Positions 19,146 to 27,519 of a stretch of DNA of 64,000 nt are shown here, one piece after another. Numbering within the stretch: the stretch's first letter is position 1; each line of letters starts with the position of its first letter. The notes beneath the pieces are model-generated. The model was not told where the DNA came from and did not search any database. It saw nothing but the letters and a program-made list of their open reading frames with translations. Origin of the DNA: an uncultured Clostridia bacterium (GTDB lineage Bacteria > Bacillota > Clostridia > Oscillospirales > Ruminococcaceae); contig CAMELR010000006.1 of NCBI GenBank assembly GCA_945923775.1, positions 1 through 64,000 on the forward strand, given 5' to 3'. Made by a program: the position numbers and the translations under genes.

Positions 19146-20570
19146 TTATAGATTTTCGTCGATCCACTTTGCGCGATTGTTGATGAACTTCCTGAGATAC
19201 AGCACCTGGTCGAGATAGGTGTTGTAGTTCTTCATCGTCAGCGGCTGGAATCCGTTTGCCACGCCCAGGGTGTTCCAAATCTCGAAGTTCTCCTCGGCGG
19301 AGGGTACCACCATCGGCTTGTAGGTGTCTATGGCGCCGAGCGCTGCGTTCACCATCGTGTCGCGGACCTCGTTCCAGCGTGCGCGCGCCTTGCTCCGGAA
19401 ATCCTCGTCGGTCATGAGGTAGTTGAACCATGTAACGCCGATGTAGCTGCTGCTGTCCATGCTGCCTATCGTAGCCCAGTCGTCGTACTTCGGATTATCC
19501 ATGTACATATTGCCGAAGGCGAGGTCGAAGTCCCATATAGGCCCCATTTCAAGGCGGCTGAGGGTGGGCTTTGTTATGTAGCAGCTCCGGCGGAAGCAGG
19601 AGTCGAGATTGTAGCTCAGCTCATGCACCAGGAACCAGTCAATGAAGCTGTCTACGTTGATGTATTTTTCGTAGCCGTCCAGGGTGGTTATCGCTGTATC
19701 GGCCTTGCACATGTAGTCGTAGATGAAGTCGAAGTGCTTCTGCGTCCACTGGTAGTCAGCCTGGGGATCCTCCTCGGTGTCGGGGCTTTTTATCTTGATG
19801 TTCACTCCGCAGCCGGAGGGCAGATTGAAGTAATTCCAGCCTTCCTTGTCGGTGGAGGGGTCTGCGCCGCCTATTTCAAGGAGGTATCCGGTCTCGACAT
19901 TTGCGAGGCTGTCGTCTATCGCAAGCCGCGAGGTCTTGACCTCAAGCTGCTCGCCGAGCGTGTAAACGCCCTGATATATCCCGTTCATGTAGACGTCAAC
20001 CGGGATAGCGTGCGGCACGAAACGGAAGCTCCCGAGGGAACGCGCCATTTCAAACGCGGTGGTGTTCCTCAGCAGGGATTCGTCCGCGTAATTCGCGAGG
20101 AGCACCCAGCGCTTCGCCTCGGACATTCCAAGCAGTGACGCTTTGTCGTCCAGCTTGATTTTGTAGGGCTTCTTCGGCCATTCCCAGGTGGAGTGGCCTC
20201 TGCCGCGTATCTTTCCGGTGAGCACTTCTGTGCTTTCGTACCTACCGCTTGTCATTCCGGCGTCTATCTGAATCGTGCAGTCGGCGTATTCCTCCTTGGT
20301 GATCGCCGACGGGTCGTCGGTGGTGAGGTAGACTGCGGGTATCAGCTTGTCGGTCTCCTGACCGAAGCTGCCGGGAATCTCGCGGAGCATAACGCTCCAG
20401 TCGTCGGAGCGGGGAGTATAATTCGCGGGGATATATTCATCGGAGATCGGGATAACGCGACCCTCTCCGTCGCGGGTATATTTATCAACGCTTTCCGTGC
20501 CTGGCTTGGAGCAGCCGCTTATCAGCATTATAGCTGCGAGTGCTGCGGCGCAGATCTGCCTGAATTTCAC
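19146..20570 (-). CDS. CotH-kinase-family lipoprotein
   Basis: 474 residues. Signal peptide and lipobox LISGC put it on the outer face of the membrane. The CotH fold is recognisable from GRGHSTWEWPKKPYKIKLD, NYADESLLRN, and the metal-binding GPIWDFDLAFGN. Spore-coat CotH of Bacillus is a protein kinase; secreted members in Clostridia and in cellulosome-forming Ruminococcus are of unknown substrate. GTG start at 20570 behind GGAGGTG. It is monocistronic with its own promoter and terminator. Confidence 0.85.
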   Translation of the reverse strand: MKFRQICAAALAAIMLISGCSKPGTESVDKYTRDGEGRVIPISDEYIPANYTPRSDDWSVMLREIPGSFGQETDKLIPAVYLTTDDPSAITKEEYADCTIQIDAGMTSGRYESTEVLTGKIRGRGHSTWEWPKKPYKIKLDDKASLLGMSEAKRWVLLANYADESLLRNTTAFEMARSLGSFRFVPHAIPVDVYMNGIYQGVYTLGEQLEVKTSRLAIDDSLANVETGYLLEIGGADPSTDKEGWNYFNLPSGCGVNIKIKSPDTEEDPQADYQWTQKHFDFIYDYMCKADTAITTLDGYEKYINVDSFIDWFLVHELSYNLDSCFRRSCYITKPTLSRLEMGPIWDFDLAFGNMYMDNPKYDDWATIGSMDSSSYIGVTWFNYLMTDEDFRSKARARWNEVRDTMVNAALGAIDTYKPMVVPSAEENFEIWNTLGVANGFQPLTMKNYNTYLDQVLYLRKFINNRAKWIDENL

Positions 20571-20607
20571 AACAAAGCACCTCCGGGAAATCAGTTCTCA
20601 TACACTA

Positions 20608-20636
20608 ATTATATACTATTCTCTATTTTCTGTCAA
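20608..20636 (-). promoter_or_regulatory. Consensus promoter of cotH
   Basis: TTGACA (20631-20636), 17 bases, TATAAT (20608-20613) on the minus strand. Confidence 0.8.
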
Positions 20637-20701
20637 CAAGATTTCATATTTTTGTAGGATATACAAAATCCGCGCCTTCGCTTATGTATAATATTTCAAA
20701 G

Positions 20702-20730
20702 AAAAACCGGAGCATTCCGCCCCGGTTTTA
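20702..20730 (-). terminator. Terminator after the aspS-sigma-membrane protein unit
   Basis: On the minus strand AAACCGGGG and CTCCGGTTT pair with a small internal mismatch and are followed by TTTCTTT. Confidence 0.65.
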
Positions 20731-20732
20731 GT

Positions 20733-22979
20733 TCAATTCAGGATCTTTTCTCCGCTCAGGAGCTTCAGACCGCCGTCAACAGCGGCCGCGCCGGTGTAGC
20801 CTGTCTTGTCGTCGTAGAGGGTGTGCAGGCTGCGGGAACGTCCAAGCTCCGCGAATTCGTCGACGACTGAAACGCCGTCGAAGTAGCGGTAAGCCGCGCC
20901 GGAGCAGTCCGTGCCGTTTATCACGAAGCAGTTTGCTCCGCTGAACCGGAAGCTTTCCAGCTCGGAAGCGGTCAGCGCCTTGGCAAAGCTGTCCGCCTGG
21001 ACTGCCTTTCCGCTTTCCAGTTTGTACAGGGTCAGCGTGATACCCGTTTTGCTGACTGCGCCGCAGAGCGCGTAATCTCCACTTACCACGCCGTCAGCCG
21101 ACGTGAGGTCGAGCGCCTTCGGGGAGGACGTATCTGAGATATCCACTGCCATCACGGTGGAGCCGCCGCTGCCTACATACACTACATTTCCGCTTATCCG
21201 GAGCTGATCTATCTCCCCGCCGGTGGTGAACGCCGCGAGCGGCTTCAGGGCGCTGTCCCTGAGGTACACGGTAACGCCGCCGTCTGATTTCTCAGCGTCG
21301 GCGATTACTCCGTTTCCTGCCGCGCAGGCGGTGATCTCCGGGAGTGCCGCGCTTACAAGGCTGCCGCTGTCAGCCGTGAGTTCAGCGGAGCCGTTTTCGC
21401 GGGACATTGCGGCGGTGAAGCTCTCCGCGCCGCTGTATATCGGGGAGCCGAGCGCGGCAAGGCGCTTTTTCTGCTCGCCGTTTTCGGCGGCGTACTCGCC
21501 CCAGACCGCGTAGCTGCAACCGTCCGCCGAGCCGCTCACCGCGATCTCAGCAGGGGAGAATGCGGTCCGCTGACCGTTCTTAGAGCCGTACGGGAGGTAC
21601 TCAAGCATGTCGTCCACGGTGAACGACTTCGTGAATCCCGGCGTGTAAACGCTTCCGAGCCGAATGACGTCCCCGCCGCAGAAAATATCAGTGAGCGTTC
21701 CGGACTGCCCGTATCTCCAGGTTTCGCCGCTGCCGTCCACGCCCGTGAGACCGCACTCCGTATCGCCGGAGTACACCGCGGTAACGCCAGAATCAGTCTG
21801 CACGACCTTTACGAATTCCGCGCCCTCCGGCGGGAACACCTGAGCCGCGAGAGTTCCGGAATCCAGCGCGTAAACGCTTATCCCGTCAGGTTCCGCAGAC
21901 CATAGCGTGTTTCCGCTGCTGAATACGCCGAGCTCCTCGCCGGAGCTTATCAGCATATCGCCGAAAACCTGCTCGTTTTTTGACAGTTTCTGCGTGTTTC
22001 CGCTGCTTATTCTGCCGTTTGTGTACGCGGTGTAAATTTCCGAGAAAACCGCCGCGTTATCGGAAGCAAACTGGAAATCACCTCCGGAGCTTCCCGGAGA
22101 TGTGAATCCGAGAATATCCATCAGCGGGCCAAGCGCGAACAGAACCGCCGCTCCGGCGGCTGCGGCTATGATCGCATTCCTGCGCGCCTTCGGGGAATCC
22201 TCCTTGACCTCCGCGGGCTGCTCGGTCTCCGTTTCGGGAGCCGCTTCCTCTTTCCGGCGCTTTCTCTGCCGGGCGGTGTACTTTTCCTCAGGTTCATCCT
22301 CGATCTCCGCAGCTATTCCGAGTTCCTCCGCGAGGTCGTCGATGGTGCGTTTTTTCTGCCGCGCGGTCAGCACCGGAGCTTCCTGCACGGGTGATTCGTC
22401 CTCGGAGGGTTCCTCGGTGCGGCGCTTTCTCTGGCGCGCTGTCCGGACGGGTCTGGGCGGTTCTGAGGGCTCAGCCGGCTCAGTGGTTTCAGCAGGCTCT
22501 TCCGGAGCGGATTCCTCCGCTGCGGGGGCTTCCTGTTCAGCCGATTCCGCAGTTTCAGCCGGAACTTGCGGCTCGGGCTGTTCTTCCTGCCGGGACTCAG
22601 CCGCCGCTTCCAGCTCGCCGGAGTCTATACGCATGGTTATGGTGTGCTCCCAGAGCTGACGCGCGGTGTAGAGCATACGGGTGTAGTCCTTCGGCGTAAG
22701 CCCGGAGCTTTCCAGCGTGACAATGAGCGTTTGCAGGTTCATATCCGGGTGCTGCTCGATTTTTGAGACCGCTTCCTCGGGAGCGCCGCAGCCCTTGAGC
22801 AGGTACAGAAAGTCCGCCGAGCCTATCCCGAGGGAGCGCAGGCGGTTCAGAAATGTGAACGCGTCCAGCTCCGGCGGGGCGGCGTTTTCGTCCATAAGGC
22901 ACACCGCGATGTTCTGCGGGAGTAGGCTCTCGGGGATAACTTTTTCAAGCATAAGGCTGCGTATTTCGGAAACCGTCAC
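20733..22979 (-). CDS. Single-pass membrane protein with TARQRKRR repeats and propeller-like outer domain
   Basis: 748 residues, family not recognised. Residues 1-125 form a helical domain. Residues 125-267 are Glu/Pro/Ala-rich and carry three basic repeats, TARQRKRR (180-187), TARQKKR (205-211) and TARQRKRR (235-242); a fourth TARQ occurs at 105. One membrane segment spans about 268-290 (AIIAAAAGAAVLFALGPLMD). The remaining 450 residues, predicted outside, are rich in short beta repeats ending in G-D/S turns, like a beta-propeller. The gene follows a sigma-factor gene by 31 bases, so an anti-sigma or signalling partner role is plausible; this is inference. No extracytoplasmic catalytic motif seen. 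Confidence 0.7.
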   Translation of the reverse strand: MTVSEIRSLMLEKVIPESLLPQNIAVCLMDENAAPPELDAFTFLNRLRSLGIGSADFLYLLKGCGAPEEAVSKIEQHPDMNLQTLIVTLESSGLTPKDYTRMLYTARQLWEHTITMRIDSGELEAAAESRQEEQPEPQVPAETAESAEQEAPAAEESAPEEPAETTEPAEPSEPPRPVRTARQRKRRTEEPSEDESPVQEAPVLTARQKKRTIDDLAEELGIAAEIEDEPEEKYTARQRKRRKEEAAPETETEQPAEVKEDSPKARRNAIIAAAAGAAVLFALGPLMDILGFTSPGSSGGDFQFASDNAAVFSEIYTAYTNGRISSGNTQKLSKNEQVFGDMLISSGEELGVFSSGNTLWSAEPDGISVYALDSGTLAAQVFPPEGAEFVKVVQTDSGVTAVYSGDTECGLTGVDGSGETWRYGQSGTLTDIFCGGDVIRLGSVYTPGFTKSFTVDDMLEYLPYGSKNGQRTAFSPAEIAVSGSADGCSYAVWGEYAAENGEQKKRLAALGSPIYSGAESFTAAMSRENGSAELTADSGSLVSAALPEITACAAGNGVIADAEKSDGGVTVYLRDSALKPLAAFTTGGEIDQLRISGNVVYVGSGGSTVMAVDISDTSSPKALDLTSADGVVSGDYALCGAVSKTGITLTLYKLESGKAVQADSFAKALTASELESFRFSGANCFVINGTDCSGAAYRYFDGVSVVDEFAELGRSRSLHTLYDDKTGYTGAAAVDGGLKLLSGEKILN

Positions 22980-23010
22980 CGGCGTTCACCTCCTGTTCTG
23001 TATTTGTCGT

Positions 23011-23478
23011 TCAGTCAAGCTCGAATGCGGTCAGCACCTTTTCGAGGGTCTTGTTTACCGCCGTGGAGCTCAGCCCGGTGAAAAGCGATATTTCGTCCGG
23101 CTGGAGCTTCGCACCGATGTACATGCTCGCCACAAGGCGCTCAGCCTCGCTGAGTCTGGAGAATTCAGCGCGTATGTCGAAGCCGCCGCTTTCCTGAATC
23201 GGCTGCACGGGGGATTCCCGGAGCTTTGTGCGTATCCGCGCACAGAGGTTCCGGAACATGAACGCCCGGAAAGCCTCCTCGCTGCGGAGCTTATTTATCG
23301 TGGTCATACCGTCCCGGGCGGAGGCTGTGACCAGCTCCACCGCGTCGGCGTCATCGCAGAGGGTATAAAAAGCGGTGTAGTACATCTCGCGGTAGACCGT
23401 CTCGTAGAGCCGCGCGAACGCTTTTGTACCGCCGTTTGCCGCAAGCTCTGAAAGTTCCTTGTATTCCCGCTTATCCAT
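23011..23478 (-). CDS. Small sigma-70-family (ECF-like) factor
   Basis: 155 residues. Region 2 is visible in KAFARLYETVYREMYYTAFY with DADAVELV and EAFRAFMFRNLCARI; region 4 in LSEAERLVASMYIGAKLQPD followed by EISLFTGLSSTAVNKTLEKV, the helix-turn-helix that reads the -35 box. Both regions are diverged from textbook ECF factors, and the acidic region 2.2 is weak. It starts 19 bases after the aspS stop and is followed after 31 bases by the large membrane protein, so aspS, sigma and membrane protein share a transcript. No autoregulated promoter lies directly before it. Confidence 0.75.
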   Translation of the reverse strand: MDKREYKELSELAANGGTKAFARLYETVYREMYYTAFYTLCDDADAVELVTASARDGMTTINKLRSEEAFRAFMFRNLCARIRTKLRESPVQPIQESGGFDIRAEFSRLSEAERLVASMYIGAKLQPDEISLFTGLSSTAVNKTLEKVLTAFELD

Positions 23479-23497
23479 AACTACACCGCCTGTTGAA

Positions 23498-25273
23498 TTA
23501 TTCCTCGCTGTTGGTAATTGCTATTCCGAGTTCCTTAAGCTGCTCCTCGCTTACAGTGGAGGGCGCCTCGCTCATCAGCTCGCTTGCGTTCTGTACCTTC
23601 GGGAAGGCAGTAACGTCGCGGAGGCTGTCGCAGCCGCACATCAGCATTGCAAGTCTGTCGAGGCCTATGCCTGCGCCGCCGTGGGGAGGCGCACCGTACT
23701 TGTATGCGTCAACAAGGAAGCCGAACTTCGCGTTAATTTCCTCATCGGTCATGCCGAGCATTTCGAACATGTGCTGCTGGAGCTCCGGATCAGTGATTCT
23801 GATGGAGCCGCTGGAAAGCTCAATGCCGTTGAGCACGAGGTCGTAGCACTTTGCGCGTACCTTTGCCTTGTCGGTGTCGAGGTAGGGAATGCACTCGTCA
23901 AGCGGCATTGTGAACGGGTGGTGCATAGCGAGCCACTCGCCGGATTCCTCGTCGTACTCGAAGAACGGGAACTCCACGATCCACAGGAAGTTCCAGCCCT
24001 CGGGGATAATGTCGAGCTGCTTTGCAATCTTGAGACGAAGTGCGCCGAGTACGGGGAGCGTTACCTTGTCCTTATCAGCAACGATGAGGGCAACATCTCC
24101 CTTTTCGCAGCCGAGAGCCTTGAGGACAGCCTCAAGCTCGCCTTCGCCCATGAACTTTGCGAAGGAGCAGTTAGGAGCGTCGTCTACCCATCTTACATAA
24201 GCGAGACCCTTCGCGCCGATACCGCGTACGAATTCGGTCTGCTTGTCGATCTCCTTGCGGGTGAGCTTTGCAGCGGCGCCCTTTGCAACGATACCGCGAA
24301 CGGAGCCGCCGTTTGCAACAGCGTCCTTGAATACGGAGAATCCGCAGTCCTTTACGATATCGGAGATGTCGGTTATCTCCATGCCGAAGCGTGTATCCGG
24401 CTTATCGGAACCGTAGCGGTTCATAGCCTCGTCGTAGGTCAGGCGGGGCAGCGGGGTGGGGATATCAACGTTGAGAACGGTCTTGTAGAGGTGCTTTACG
24501 AAGCCCTCCAGGCACTCGAGGATATCGTCAACGTCAACGAAGGACATCTCAAGGTCAATCTGTGTGAACTCAGGCTGGCGGTCTGCGCGCAGATCCTCGT
24601 CGCGGAAGCAGCGTGCAAGCTGGATATATCTGTCCATGCCCGCGATCATCAGGAGCTGCTTGTACATCTGCGGGGACTGCGGCAGTGCGTAGAACTTGCC
24701 GTTGTGGATACGGGACGGCACGATGTAGTCACGCGCACCCTCGGGGGTGGACTTTATCATCATCGGGGTCTCGATCTCGGTGAAGCCGTTTGCGTAGAAG
24801 TACTCGCGGGCTGCCTTTGCTATTTCGTGGCGCATCATGAGGTTCTTCTGGAGCGGCTCGCGGCGCAGGTCGAGGTAGCGGTACTTGAGGCGGAGCTCCT
24901 CGTTTGTCTTGGTGTTGCTTACTATCTCAAAGGGAGGGGTCTGCGCCTTGGAAAGAATGCGCAGCTCCGTTACGACTATCTCAACGCCGCCGGTCTTTAT
25001 CTCGGTGTTGACGCTCTCACGCGCGCGCACGGTGCCCTTAGCCAGCAGAACATACTCCGAGCGGACGCTCTCTGCCTTTTCGAACACGCTCTTTTCGGTG
25101 GTCTCATCGAAAACGAGCTGAACGATACCGGACTTGTCTCTAAGATCTATGAAGATAAGGCTGCCCTTGTCGCGGACTCTCTGTGTGAATCCGCCTACAA
25201 CGACTTCGCCCATTTCCAGCGTAACTTCGCCGCATAAGCATGTCCTTCTCAGGCCCTGCATTGTGTCTGCCAT
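23498..25273 (-). CDS. aspS: Aspartyl-tRNA synthetase
   Basis: Charges tRNA-Asp. 591 residues, the bacterial-type length with the GAD insert. OB-fold anticodon domain first (RDKSGIVQLVFDE), class II motif 2 in ARCFRDEDLRADRQPEFTQI, and motif 3 in GAGIGLDRLAMLM. ATG at 25273 follows AAAGGA; an upstream in-frame ATG at 25318 lies in the promoter -10 spacing and is rejected. Whether it charges tRNA-Asn as well cannot be told from the sequence by eye. The sigma gene begins 19 bases after its stop. Confidence 0.97.
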   Translation of the reverse strand: MADTMQGLRRTCLCGEVTLEMGEVVVGGFTQRVRDKGSLIFIDLRDKSGIVQLVFDETTEKSVFEKAESVRSEYVLLAKGTVRARESVNTEIKTGGVEIVVTELRILSKAQTPPFEIVSNTKTNEELRLKYRYLDLRREPLQKNLMMRHEIAKAAREYFYANGFTEIETPMMIKSTPEGARDYIVPSRIHNGKFYALPQSPQMYKQLLMIAGMDRYIQLARCFRDEDLRADRQPEFTQIDLEMSFVDVDDILECLEGFVKHLYKTVLNVDIPTPLPRLTYDEAMNRYGSDKPDTRFGMEITDISDIVKDCGFSVFKDAVANGGSVRGIVAKGAAAKLTRKEIDKQTEFVRGIGAKGLAYVRWVDDAPNCSFAKFMGEGELEAVLKALGCEKGDVALIVADKDKVTLPVLGALRLKIAKQLDIIPEGWNFLWIVEFPFFEYDEESGEWLAMHHPFTMPLDECIPYLDTDKAKVRAKCYDLVLNGIELSSGSIRITDPELQQHMFEMLGMTDEEINAKFGFLVDAYKYGAPPHGGAGIGLDRLAMLMCGCDSLRDVTAFPKVQNASELMSEAPSTVSEEQLKELGIAITNSEE

Positions 25274-25326
25274 AAAAATAGTTCCTTCTTTCTTTTGATA
25301 TACCGGAAAAATCCGCATTATTTTTA

Positions 25327-25355
25327 ATTATACCATTAATTCCGCTATTTTTCAA
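25327..25355 (-). promoter_or_regulatory. Promoter of aspS
   Basis: TTGAAA (25350-25355), 17 bases, TATAAT (25327-25332) on the minus strand. The leader is about 45 bases, too short for a T-box, and none is visible. Confidence 0.75.
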
Positions 25356-25457: not shown

Positions 25458-25979
25458 TCACGTCATGCTGGGTCGGAGGTCTATCCAGAACCTGTTGACG
25501 TACACCTTTTCTTCTTCGTCATACATCTTGTTTTCGAACACGCCGCTGTTCCTTGCAATTACCTTCTGGGAGGCGTAGTTATCCTCGTCGCAGACTGCGA
25601 GGACGCGCTCCAGCCCGAACGACCGCGCGAGGCGCAGTCCCTGTTCCAGCATTTCGGTGGCGAGGCCTCTGTTCCGCTCGGAGCGCCTTACGGCGTAGCC
25701 GATGTGCCCGCCGTAATTCAGCAGGTATTCGGTCAGCTCGAATTTCAGGCTGAAAACTCCCACCAGCCTGCTTCCTTCGTAGCAGAGGTAGAAATTTTCG
25801 CGCACCCAGCCCTCGGGGAGATTCTCGCCGGAACTCCGGTCGCGCTTTTCCTGGAGCCACGCCGCGTAATCCTCGTACCCGGCGGAGCCTATGCAGCTCT
25901 CGCCACGCCTTTCAAACTCGGCGTAGAAGTCAAGCACGTCGTCTCTGTGGGTTTCGTCCGGGAGGGTGAATTTTATCAT
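25458..25979 (-). CDS. GNAT-family N-acetyltransferase
   Basis: 173 residues. Acetyl-CoA fold shown by GVFSLKFELTEYLLNYGGHI, then GYAVRRSERNRGLATEML (the acetyl-CoA pyrophosphate loop) and VLAVCDEDNYASQKVI. ATG at 25979 with AAAGGA upstream; the longer frame overlaps the comM stop. It follows comM by 13 bases. Substrate unknown; resemblance is to RimJ/L-like acetyltransferases of small molecules or proteins. Confidence 0.85.
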   Translation of the reverse strand: MIKFTLPDETHRDDVLDFYAEFERRGESCIGSAGYEDYAAWLQEKRDRSSGENLPEGWVRENFYLCYEGSRLVGVFSLKFELTEYLLNYGGHIGYAVRRSERNRGLATEMLEQGLRLARSFGLERVLAVCDEDNYASQKVIARNSGVFENKMYDEEEKVYVNRFWIDLRPSMT

Positions 25980-25992
25980 TTTGCAGTTCCTT

Positions 25993-27519
25993 TCATCTGT
26001 TCCAGTACTTGCGGTCAAGGCTGCGGAAGCTTATCGCCTGCGCGATGTGGGATTTCCCGATATCCTCGCTGCCCGCGAGGTCGGCGCAGGTTCTTGCGAC
26101 CTTCAGAATACGGTCGTAGGCGCGGGCGGAAAGCCCCAGCTTCTCAAATGCAGATTTCAGCATTTCTTCCGCGTCGGGAGTCAGCCGGCAGACCTCCCCG
26201 ATGATGTCGGAGGTGATACCGCTGTTGCTGCGGATATCCGTTCCGGCAAAGCGCTTTTTCTGTATCTCCACCGCCTTCTGGACGCGTTCCGCGATAGCTG
26301 CGGAGCTTTCCTGCGGGGCGCGGCGGCTCAGGTCGGCGTACTCGACGGGCTTTACCTCGACCTGGAGGTCTATGCGGTCAAGCAGCGGCTCTGATATGCG
26401 GTTGAGGTACGCCGTGACCTTCTGCGGGGTGCAGGTGCATTTCTTCACCGGACTGCCGAAATTCCCGCAGGGGCAGGGATTCATCGCCGCGACCAGCATT
26501 ACGCGGCAGGGGTAGCTCACCGAGCCGCTGGCGCGTGAGATCACGATGTCGCCGTTTTCAAGCGGCTGACGGAGCGCTTCCAGCACGCGGCGGTCGAACT
26601 CCGGAAGCTCGTCCAGGAACAGGACGCCGTTGTGCGCCAGGCTGATCTCGCCGGGGCGGGGAATGCTCCCTCCGCCGACCAGCCCGACTGCGGACGCGGT
26701 GTGGCTCACGGCGCGGAACGGACGCTCCGTCACGAGCGGCTCCGCTGGGTTGATCTCACCGGCTACGGAGTATATCTGGGTGGTCTCGATGCTCTCGGCG
26801 AAGGTTATCTCTGGGAGAATCGAGGGAATACGCTTCGCAAGCATGGATTTACCAGAGCCTGGAGGTCCGAGCATGAGCAGGTTGTGCGAGCCAGCCGCCG
26901 CGACCTCTATTGCCGCCTTCGCCTGGGACTGCCCCATAACGTCCGCGAAATCCAGCAGGTGAGCGCCCTCGCGCCGCTTCGGGACGTACTTCTCTTCCGG
27001 GGAAAGCCCGGTCCCGTGCCGCAGGAACTCCATTATCTGGGCAACATGCTCCACGCCGTAGACCTCGATACCATCGGCGACGGAAGCCTCCTTGGCGTTC
27101 GCCTTCGGGAGGAACACGCGCTTCGCGCCATTCTGTGCGGCGGTCAGCACCATCGAGAGCGCTCCGTTGACCGGCGCGAGCTTCCCGTCAAGGGACAACT
27201 CCCCGATGAAAACGCTGTCGGACAGGTCGGCGGAGATGAGTCCGCCGAGCTTCATCAGCGCGGTTATTATCGGCAGGTCGAACATGGAGCCTATCTTGCG
27301 TACGCTCGCCGGGGCGAGGTTCACCGTGACCTTCCCGTTAAGCAGTTTCAGCTCCAGATGCCCCAGCACCGCGCGTATACGCGCCTTGCTCTCCTGCACG
27401 GCAATATCAGGCATTCCGACGATGTCGAACGACGGCTGACCCGGCGCGATGCTCGCCTGAACCGTCACCATGAACGCGTTCAGACCGAAAAGTCCCGCGC
27501 TTTTTATCTCACTGAACAT
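25993..27519 (-). CDS. comM: YifB/ComM-family Mg-chelatase-like ATPase
   Basis: 508 residues. The N-terminal Lon-like domain starts MFSEIKSAGLFGLNAFMVTV; the AAA+ domain has Walker A GPPGSGKSM and Walker B VLFLDELPEF, followed by a Cys cluster NPCPCGNFGSPVKKCTCTP. In naturally competent bacteria ComM is a hexameric helicase that extends branch migration during transformation; the protein is widespread in non-competent species. It lies between two GNAT genes, 10 and 13 bases from each. Confidence 0.93.
   Translation of the reverse strand: MFSEIKSAGLFGLNAFMVTVQASIAPGQPSFDIVGMPDIAVQESKARIRAVLGHLELKLLNGKVTVNLAPASVRKIGSMFDLPIITALMKLGGLISADLSDSVFIGELSLDGKLAPVNGALSMVLTAAQNGAKRVFLPKANAKEASVADGIEVYGVEHVAQIMEFLRHGTGLSPEEKYVPKRREGAHLLDFADVMGQSQAKAAIEVAAAGSHNLLMLGPPGSGKSMLAKRIPSILPEITFAESIETTQIYSVAGEINPAEPLVTERPFRAVSHTASAVGLVGGGSIPRPGEISLAHNGVLFLDELPEFDRRVLEALRQPLENGDIVISRASGSVSYPCRVMLVAAMNPCPCGNFGSPVKKCTCTPQKVTAYLNRISEPLLDRIDLQVEVKPVEYADLSRRAPQESSAAIAERVQKAVEIQKKRFAGTDIRSNSGITSDIIGEVCRLTPDAEEMLKSAFEKLGLSARAYDRILKVARTCADLAGSEDIGKSHIAQAISFRSLDRKYWNR

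Follow-up and report, generated by a model that had tools for sequence, protein, structure and literature searches.

Why an aspartyl-tRNA synthetase gene should be followed in its operon by a diverged sigma factor and a large membrane protein is the question raised by positions 20,733 to 25,273 of contig CAMELR010000006.1, from an uncultured Clostridia bacterium of the Ruminococcaceae (GenBank assembly GCA_945923775.1, a 2.97-Mb draft genome in 89 contigs). The window analyzed here is the 64,000-nucleotide (nt) stretch from position 1 of that contig, and the named relatives of its source are metagenome-assembled genomes of uncultured Oscillospiraceae, Ruminococcaceae or Clostridia, several of which come from rabbit or deer gut according to their isolate names. 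All three genes lie on the minus strand, in the order aspS (23498..25273; the name comes from a first-pass annotation, and homologues lie near the sigma gene in relatives), a 155-residue sigma factor gene (23011..23478), and the gene for a 748-residue membrane partner with a GTG start (20733..22979), the gaps being 19 and 31 nt. Open reading frame coordinates and folding of the terminator hairpin agree with the layout given in the first-pass annotation. From sequence comparisons, the pair is most plausibly interpreted as a rewired relative of a system in which an extracytoplasmic function (ECF) sigma factor is encoded beside a membrane protein with a PF09826 propeller; its own promoter appears to have been lost, the sigma-A-type promoter of aspS apparently serves instead, and both region 2.2 and the recognition helix of the sigma factor are altered.

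The small protein had been described as a diverged ECF-like sigma factor, and although the evidence is weak for the single sequence it is clear for the family. Alone, the window sigma has no Pfam match, and its matches to NCBIfam ECF models (best 1.4e-8) all fall under the model cut-offs. Among 42 members of its family, however, 30 match Sigma70_r4_2 (best 1.4e-10) and just two match Sigma70_r2, and the family profile matches Bacillus subtilis SigW over both regions (7e-6). The two-domain plan of ECF factors can be recognized, with region 2 at residues 1-90 (23209..23478), placed by comparison with canonical ECFs, and region 4 with its helix-turn-helix at residues 100-155 (23014..23181), placed by that comparison and the Sigma70_r4_2 matches. 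An AlphaFold2 model of a natural fusion of sigma and partner, discussed below, also predicts that the sigma part folds as regions 2 and 4 (predicted template modelling score 0.75), as had been anticipated for this protein.

The outer domain of the partner (residues ~292-748; 20736..22106) was suspected to be propeller-like, and two kinds of comparison point the same way. The window protein has a weak LVIVD match slightly below the Pfam cut-off, and PF09826 is not matched directly by Pfam in any of four partners tested from the source's own genus. In profile-profile comparison, the own-genus outer domain matches the PF09826 domains of the bacterial family with 98.9% probability (E 3.4e-17) over 387 colinear columns, and a control with reversed targets gives 0.2%. 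Partners from a second genus (g16) are intermediate, with 97.5% to the own-genus domain and 99.9% to PF09826. Direct PF09826 matches are found in four of seven intermediate partners: three of the six from g16 (8e-10, 4e-11 and 1.4e-18), and the one from a third genus, g132 (L166), whose clear PF09826 beta-propeller (E 4e-115) is encoded behind a canonical-looking ECF gene. Comparison with 29 PF09826 proteins from the phylum at large, most of them secreted, gives a weak match (47.6%, 63 columns). The assignment of the outer domain as a diverged PF09826 propeller is thus well supported by these profiles.

Canonical pairs of this kind are common in the bacterial family. PF09826 is present in 73 of its 197 genomes, and at 29 of the best 30 loci an ECF gene lies directly upstream of, or overlaps, the PF09826 frame. 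A wider sample of the phylum has PF09826 in 71 of 299 genomes and an adjoining ECF gene at one of the best 30 loci, and the pairing therefore appears to mark this family, and perhaps its neighbours, but not PF09826 generally. The window genes have the same order, with the sigma gene directly upstream. They also share a motif near the partner N-terminus, represented in the window by IPESLLPQNI (residues 15-24; 22908..22937) and common to the partners of the canonical ECFs. Its strict form, [IV]Pxx[LIV]xPxN[IV], occurs in 31 of the 40 partners from the own genus and 12 of the 30 from the family, as against none of 20,000 random 90-mers matched in composition, and several other partners have near variants such as IPERLEPESI and LPDSLRAKNL. 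The kinship of the window pair to this system, which is seen in many genera of the family, is well supported by these similarities, and was missed in the first-pass annotation, as were the IPxxLxPxNI motif, the loss of the ancestral promoter and the existence of natural fusions.

The ancestral promoter is visible upstream of the canonical pairs. The element GCAA-N19-CAC occurs upstream of 23 of 29 family ECF genes (L180-L209 regions, with g132 counted), whereas the best pair in shuffled sequences reaches 6-9 (20 rounds); in 21 of the 23 it begins 55-135 nt before the sigma start. The consensus, TGCAACAAAA..CACT (TGCAACA-N17-CACT), would look as an autoregulatory ECF promoter is expected to look. 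A stricter form of the motif has further sites in the genomes with canonical pairs, a few of them before secreted-, lipoprotein- or membrane-like genes, with controls showing some chance occurrence. By eye, the pattern precedes membrane-, secreted- or lipoprotein-like genes at L245, L247, L257, L264 and L266; these sites could mark an envelope regulon, though they may have arisen by chance.

The element is present in g132, missing at all six g16 loci, and found in none of 40 own-genus regions upstream of aspS and, in the 300 nt that precede the sigma gene, in one of 41 cases, in keeping with the first-pass remark that no autoregulated promoter precedes the pair. Within the window operon it occurs solely inside aspS (24286) and the partner gene (20936). 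What does precede the operon is a predicted sigma-A-type promoter, TTGAAA-17-TATAAT with a TG before the -10 (25327..25355), one of four promoter-like sites in the region where 1.6 are expected by the scan; the longest aspS frame begins at 25318, and its likely start is 25273. A sigma-A-type site lies no more than 160 nt upstream of aspS at 36 of 40 own-genus loci, as against 1.9% of shuffles. It is therefore well supported by sequence that the own-genus pair sits behind aspS and its sigma-A-type promoter, with the ancestral promoter not found there. The operon is predicted to end at an intrinsic terminator directly 3' of the partner stop codon (hairpin and U-run, 20700..20729; -18.5 kcal/mol, z -4.8, equalled by none of 200 shuffles), although the hairpin is absent from the list of a simple pattern scan.

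This arrangement invites the idea that the sigma factor reports on or regulates aspartyl-tRNA synthetase and so couples transcription to tRNA charging or translation, and aspS does share a stretch with the sigma gene at 40 of 41 own-genus loci fetched, usually directly upstream (the exception, L071, is at a contig end). We think such coupling very improbable. In all seven genomes of g16 and g132 the pair and the best aspS match are on separate contigs, and at nine of the 41 own-genus loci a relative of the window GNAT gene is upstream of sigma, with aspS visible beyond it in eight. No Rfam family reaches the gathering score within the window, and the upstream promoter is of the ordinary sigma-A type. 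The link to aspS thus looks positional, nothing found favours the coupling raised in the first-pass annotation, and we note that in the window itself the GNAT acetyltransferase gene lies upstream of aspS (25458-26018).

The pair itself is conserved well beyond what chance would give. In a survey of conservation, set as a test beforehand, sigma and partner co-occurred in the identical 42 of the genus's 43 genomes (100 relatives searched) and in seven genomes of the two other genera. G029, the one own-genus genome without them, also lacks a true aspS match, having distant synthetase matches alone (27-35% identity), and the absence of the pair there therefore probably reflects an assembly gap. 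Sigma and partner are together at 40 of the 41 own-genus loci, 38 as adjacent genes and two as fusions, and the remaining locus (L101) breaks at a contig end. A profile of the partner N-terminus matches 14 of 396 family genomes (seven of the own genus, six of g16 and one of g132), and in all seven g16 and g132 genomes a sigma gene is directly upstream. In G041 and G017 the two proteins form a single open frame of 943 codons. These fusions are sisters, with 152 of their first 160 residues identical, and so probably derive from one event; the synonymous divergence of their sigma parts (dS 0.41) indicates that the fused frame has been kept. Sigma distances correlate with those of the partner N-terminus (r 0.86, and 0.73 with the aspS distance removed; 39 genomes, given without a significance test). 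Ratios of nonsynonymous to synonymous substitution (dN/dS) are 0.05-0.15 for sigma and 0.01-0.09 for the partner N-terminus in 10 close pairs, and 0.13-0.22 for the outer domain in seven pairs with a complete protein. Strong purifying selection on both proteins is well supported by these values, as is, from the loci, the conclusion that the two genes are conserved together, as a pair that has become one protein in one lineage.

It could be argued that a degenerate sigma gene and a surface protein gene are merely co-transcribed neighbours, and a single-sequence AlphaFold2 model, being uninformative, does nothing to discourage this. We regard this explanation as very improbable, given the natural fusion, the persistence of the pair at other sites in other genera, the covariation of sigma and partner beyond the part explained by aspS, and the adjacency of ECF and propeller genes across the bacterial family.

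The partner can be divided into several parts. It has one clear hydrophobic span (residues ~268-286; 22122..22178), in agreement with its first-pass description as a single-span protein. Between the motif and this span are a helical subdomain (residues ~36-118; 22626..22874), delimited by conservation, selection and the fusion model and the best-conserved section of the protein, and an acidic cytoplasmic linker (residues ~119-264; 22188..22625) in which residues 126-262 include 40 aspartates and glutamates and 20 lysines and arginines. The three TARQ(R/K)KR repeats singled out in the first-pass annotation are present in the linker (residues 180-243; 22251..22442), beginning at residues 180, 205 and 235, but any repeat of this type is found in just five of the 40 further partners compared from the own genus (of which 32 are complete), so that they are a local, lineage-specific feature and not a conserved one. 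The motif and helical subdomain have no significant library match. No anti-sigma family is among the Pfam and NCBIfam matches of the window partner or of 40 N-termini, as had been noted for the window protein, though a diverged protein such as this may have the fold of a class I (zinc) factor without giving a match; the RsgI N-terminal domain likewise has no Pfam match in these sequences. Two further observations concern this part of the protein. Cys64 is invariant in 40 of 40 own-genus partners and by eye missing from the six of g16, and the acidic linker of one partner (L065:3068-5578) consists of many tandem APEEIEDN-type units, showing that the linker can expand.

The residues in which the sigma factor has diverged bear on whether it still directs transcription. 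In sigma factors, region 2.2 touches the beta-prime clamp of RNA polymerase and the -35 element is read by the recognition helix. We compared 41 own-genus and six g16 sigmas with 28 canonical ECFs of the bacterial family. Position 52 is acidic in 26 of the 28 canonical factors and in 10 of the 41 own-genus sigmas (Ala in the window); position 55 is hydrophobic in 26 of 28 but Arg or Lys in 41 of 41 (Arg in the window); position 73 is Trp in 25 of 28 and Phe, Tyr or His in all 41, with no Trp; and the recognition-helix Ser143, present in 23 of 28, is replaced by Lys or Arg in all 41. The canonical hallmarks at 52, 55 and 73 are accordingly not those of the own-genus sigmas, which lowers the likelihood of an ordinary ECF factor but does not count against an ECF-derived one. 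The g132 sigma, in contrast, is canonical at each of these four positions, and g132 also has the promoter. A lineage-specific cysteine, Cys79, is present in 38 of 41 own-genus and all six g16 sigmas.

Two readings of these changes have to be weighed. The first, to which we incline although with appreciable doubt, is that the genes encode an ECF sigma factor and its membrane anti-sigma factor with a propeller sensor outside the cell, and that the pair still signals with a changed choice of promoters; this sustains the first-pass suggestion of a sigma/anti-sigma pair. The second, which is possible though on the unlikely side, is that the sigma factor has been domesticated: no longer directing transcription, it would stay bound at the membrane as a permanent adaptor of the propeller protein, sharing its expression with a housekeeping gene, and would serve an envelope function or, while tethered, bind DNA or provide a scaffold. 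The joint loss of the ancestral promoter and the region 2.2 hallmarks in the own genus, and mostly in g16, while g132 keeps both, speaks for domestication, as do the fusion of sigma to a membrane protein in two genomes and the number of ancestral-type sites in six own-genus genomes, which does not exceed that of a reversed-pattern control (3 vs 3). The acidic recognition helix (-1 to -3) in four of the six g16 sigmas, whose genes remain beside the partner gene (L167-L170), is also hard to reconcile with DNA binding. Against this, the recognition helix of the own genus remains basic, with a mean charge of +3.95 compared with +4.07 in canonical factors (the window sigma, at +1, is the lowest of its genus), the Sigma70_r4_2 matches described above persist, and Trp73 is kept in three of six g16 sigmas. 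An extension of the domestication argument, likewise possible but on the unlikely side, is that an autoregulated ECF/propeller system was deprived of its promoter and polymerase-contact hallmarks together in two genera. Strong selection would have maintained it as a constitutive complex at the membrane, with the fusions, which may never be free transcription factors, as the end point.

If the pair does still signal, its mechanism might be as follows. The cytoplasmic N-terminus of the partner, consisting of the IPxxLxPxNI helix and the helical subdomain, would keep the sigma factor bound at the membrane, in a compact conformation unusable by RNA polymerase. Binding of a ligand or envelope signal by the propeller would then free the sigma factor, probably by proteolysis or by rearrangement across the single span, and the freed factor would read promoters other than those of the ancestral TGCAACA-N17-CACT type. 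Because the pair is expressed with aspS the positive feedback loop would be gone; expression would be constitutive, and the output would be set by sigma release. The fusion model hints at binding and inhibition of sigma by the cytoplasmic part of the partner, and is suggestive only: its sigma part resembles the compact, anti-sigma-bound forms of SigW and CnrH.

Comparison with known systems sets the window pair in context. The canonical family pairs share with it the gene order, the IPxxLxPxNI-type motif before the span and the PF09826 propeller; they differ in keeping the ECF hallmarks and the autoregulatory-type promoter and in mostly having a short stretch before the span, where the window partner has a helical subdomain and acidic linker, and its propeller is degenerate and its gene lies behind aspS with no such promoter. 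SigI/RsgI of Clostridium thermocellum likewise places a sigma gene beside that of a large single-span anti-sigma factor whose outer domain is a sensor; SigI, however, is not a classic ECF factor, RsgI sensors are carbohydrate-binding, and the window partner has no RsgI-type domain match. In CnrH/CnrY and SigW/RsiW a membrane protein holds the ECF factor through its cytoplasmic part, and the predicted sigma structure matches the bound forms, but the window partner lacks a match to a known anti-sigma domain and has a propeller outside. CnrY is called a class II anti-sigma factor in PMC7406223. Sigma/anti-sigma fusions are also known, and PMC8999054 lists IutY (ECF243), ECF36 and ECF48/52/53, with IutY and ECF48/52/53 activated, or expected to be activated, by proteolysis. 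As in G017 and G041, these have a sigma factor and membrane anti-sigma in one chain; ECF48/52/53, however, are actinobacterial, IutY is from Pseudomonas putida and the outer domains are different, and the window genes are separate. Since such fusions are released by proteolysis, those of G017 and G041 are compatible with signalling, and fusion is no proof of lost function.

The component types, namely ECF sigma factor, membrane anti-sigma, PF09826 propeller and sigma/anti-sigma fusion, are already known. In the literature searched we found no description of the ECF/PF09826 pairing, its motif and promoter, or the aspS-linked and fused forms, although an earlier listing in an ECF classification is possible. 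One of the main ways in which outside signals reach transcription in bacteria is through ECF sigma factors, and the evidence points to the PF09826 propeller as a sensor type not described in that literature. This sensor type comes with a recognizable candidate sigma-binding motif, and its promoter motif would make the regulons of these sigma factors predictable from sequence. The natural series from canonical to intermediate, rewired and fused forms allows one to ask how such a switch alters its promoter choice, loses its feedback or stops switching.

Beyond the terminator, the next minus-strand gene (19146-20636) encodes a 474-residue protein, presumably CotH-like, and has its own perfect TTGACA-17-TATAAT promoter. 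A relative of this gene also follows the partner gene at L061 and L063.

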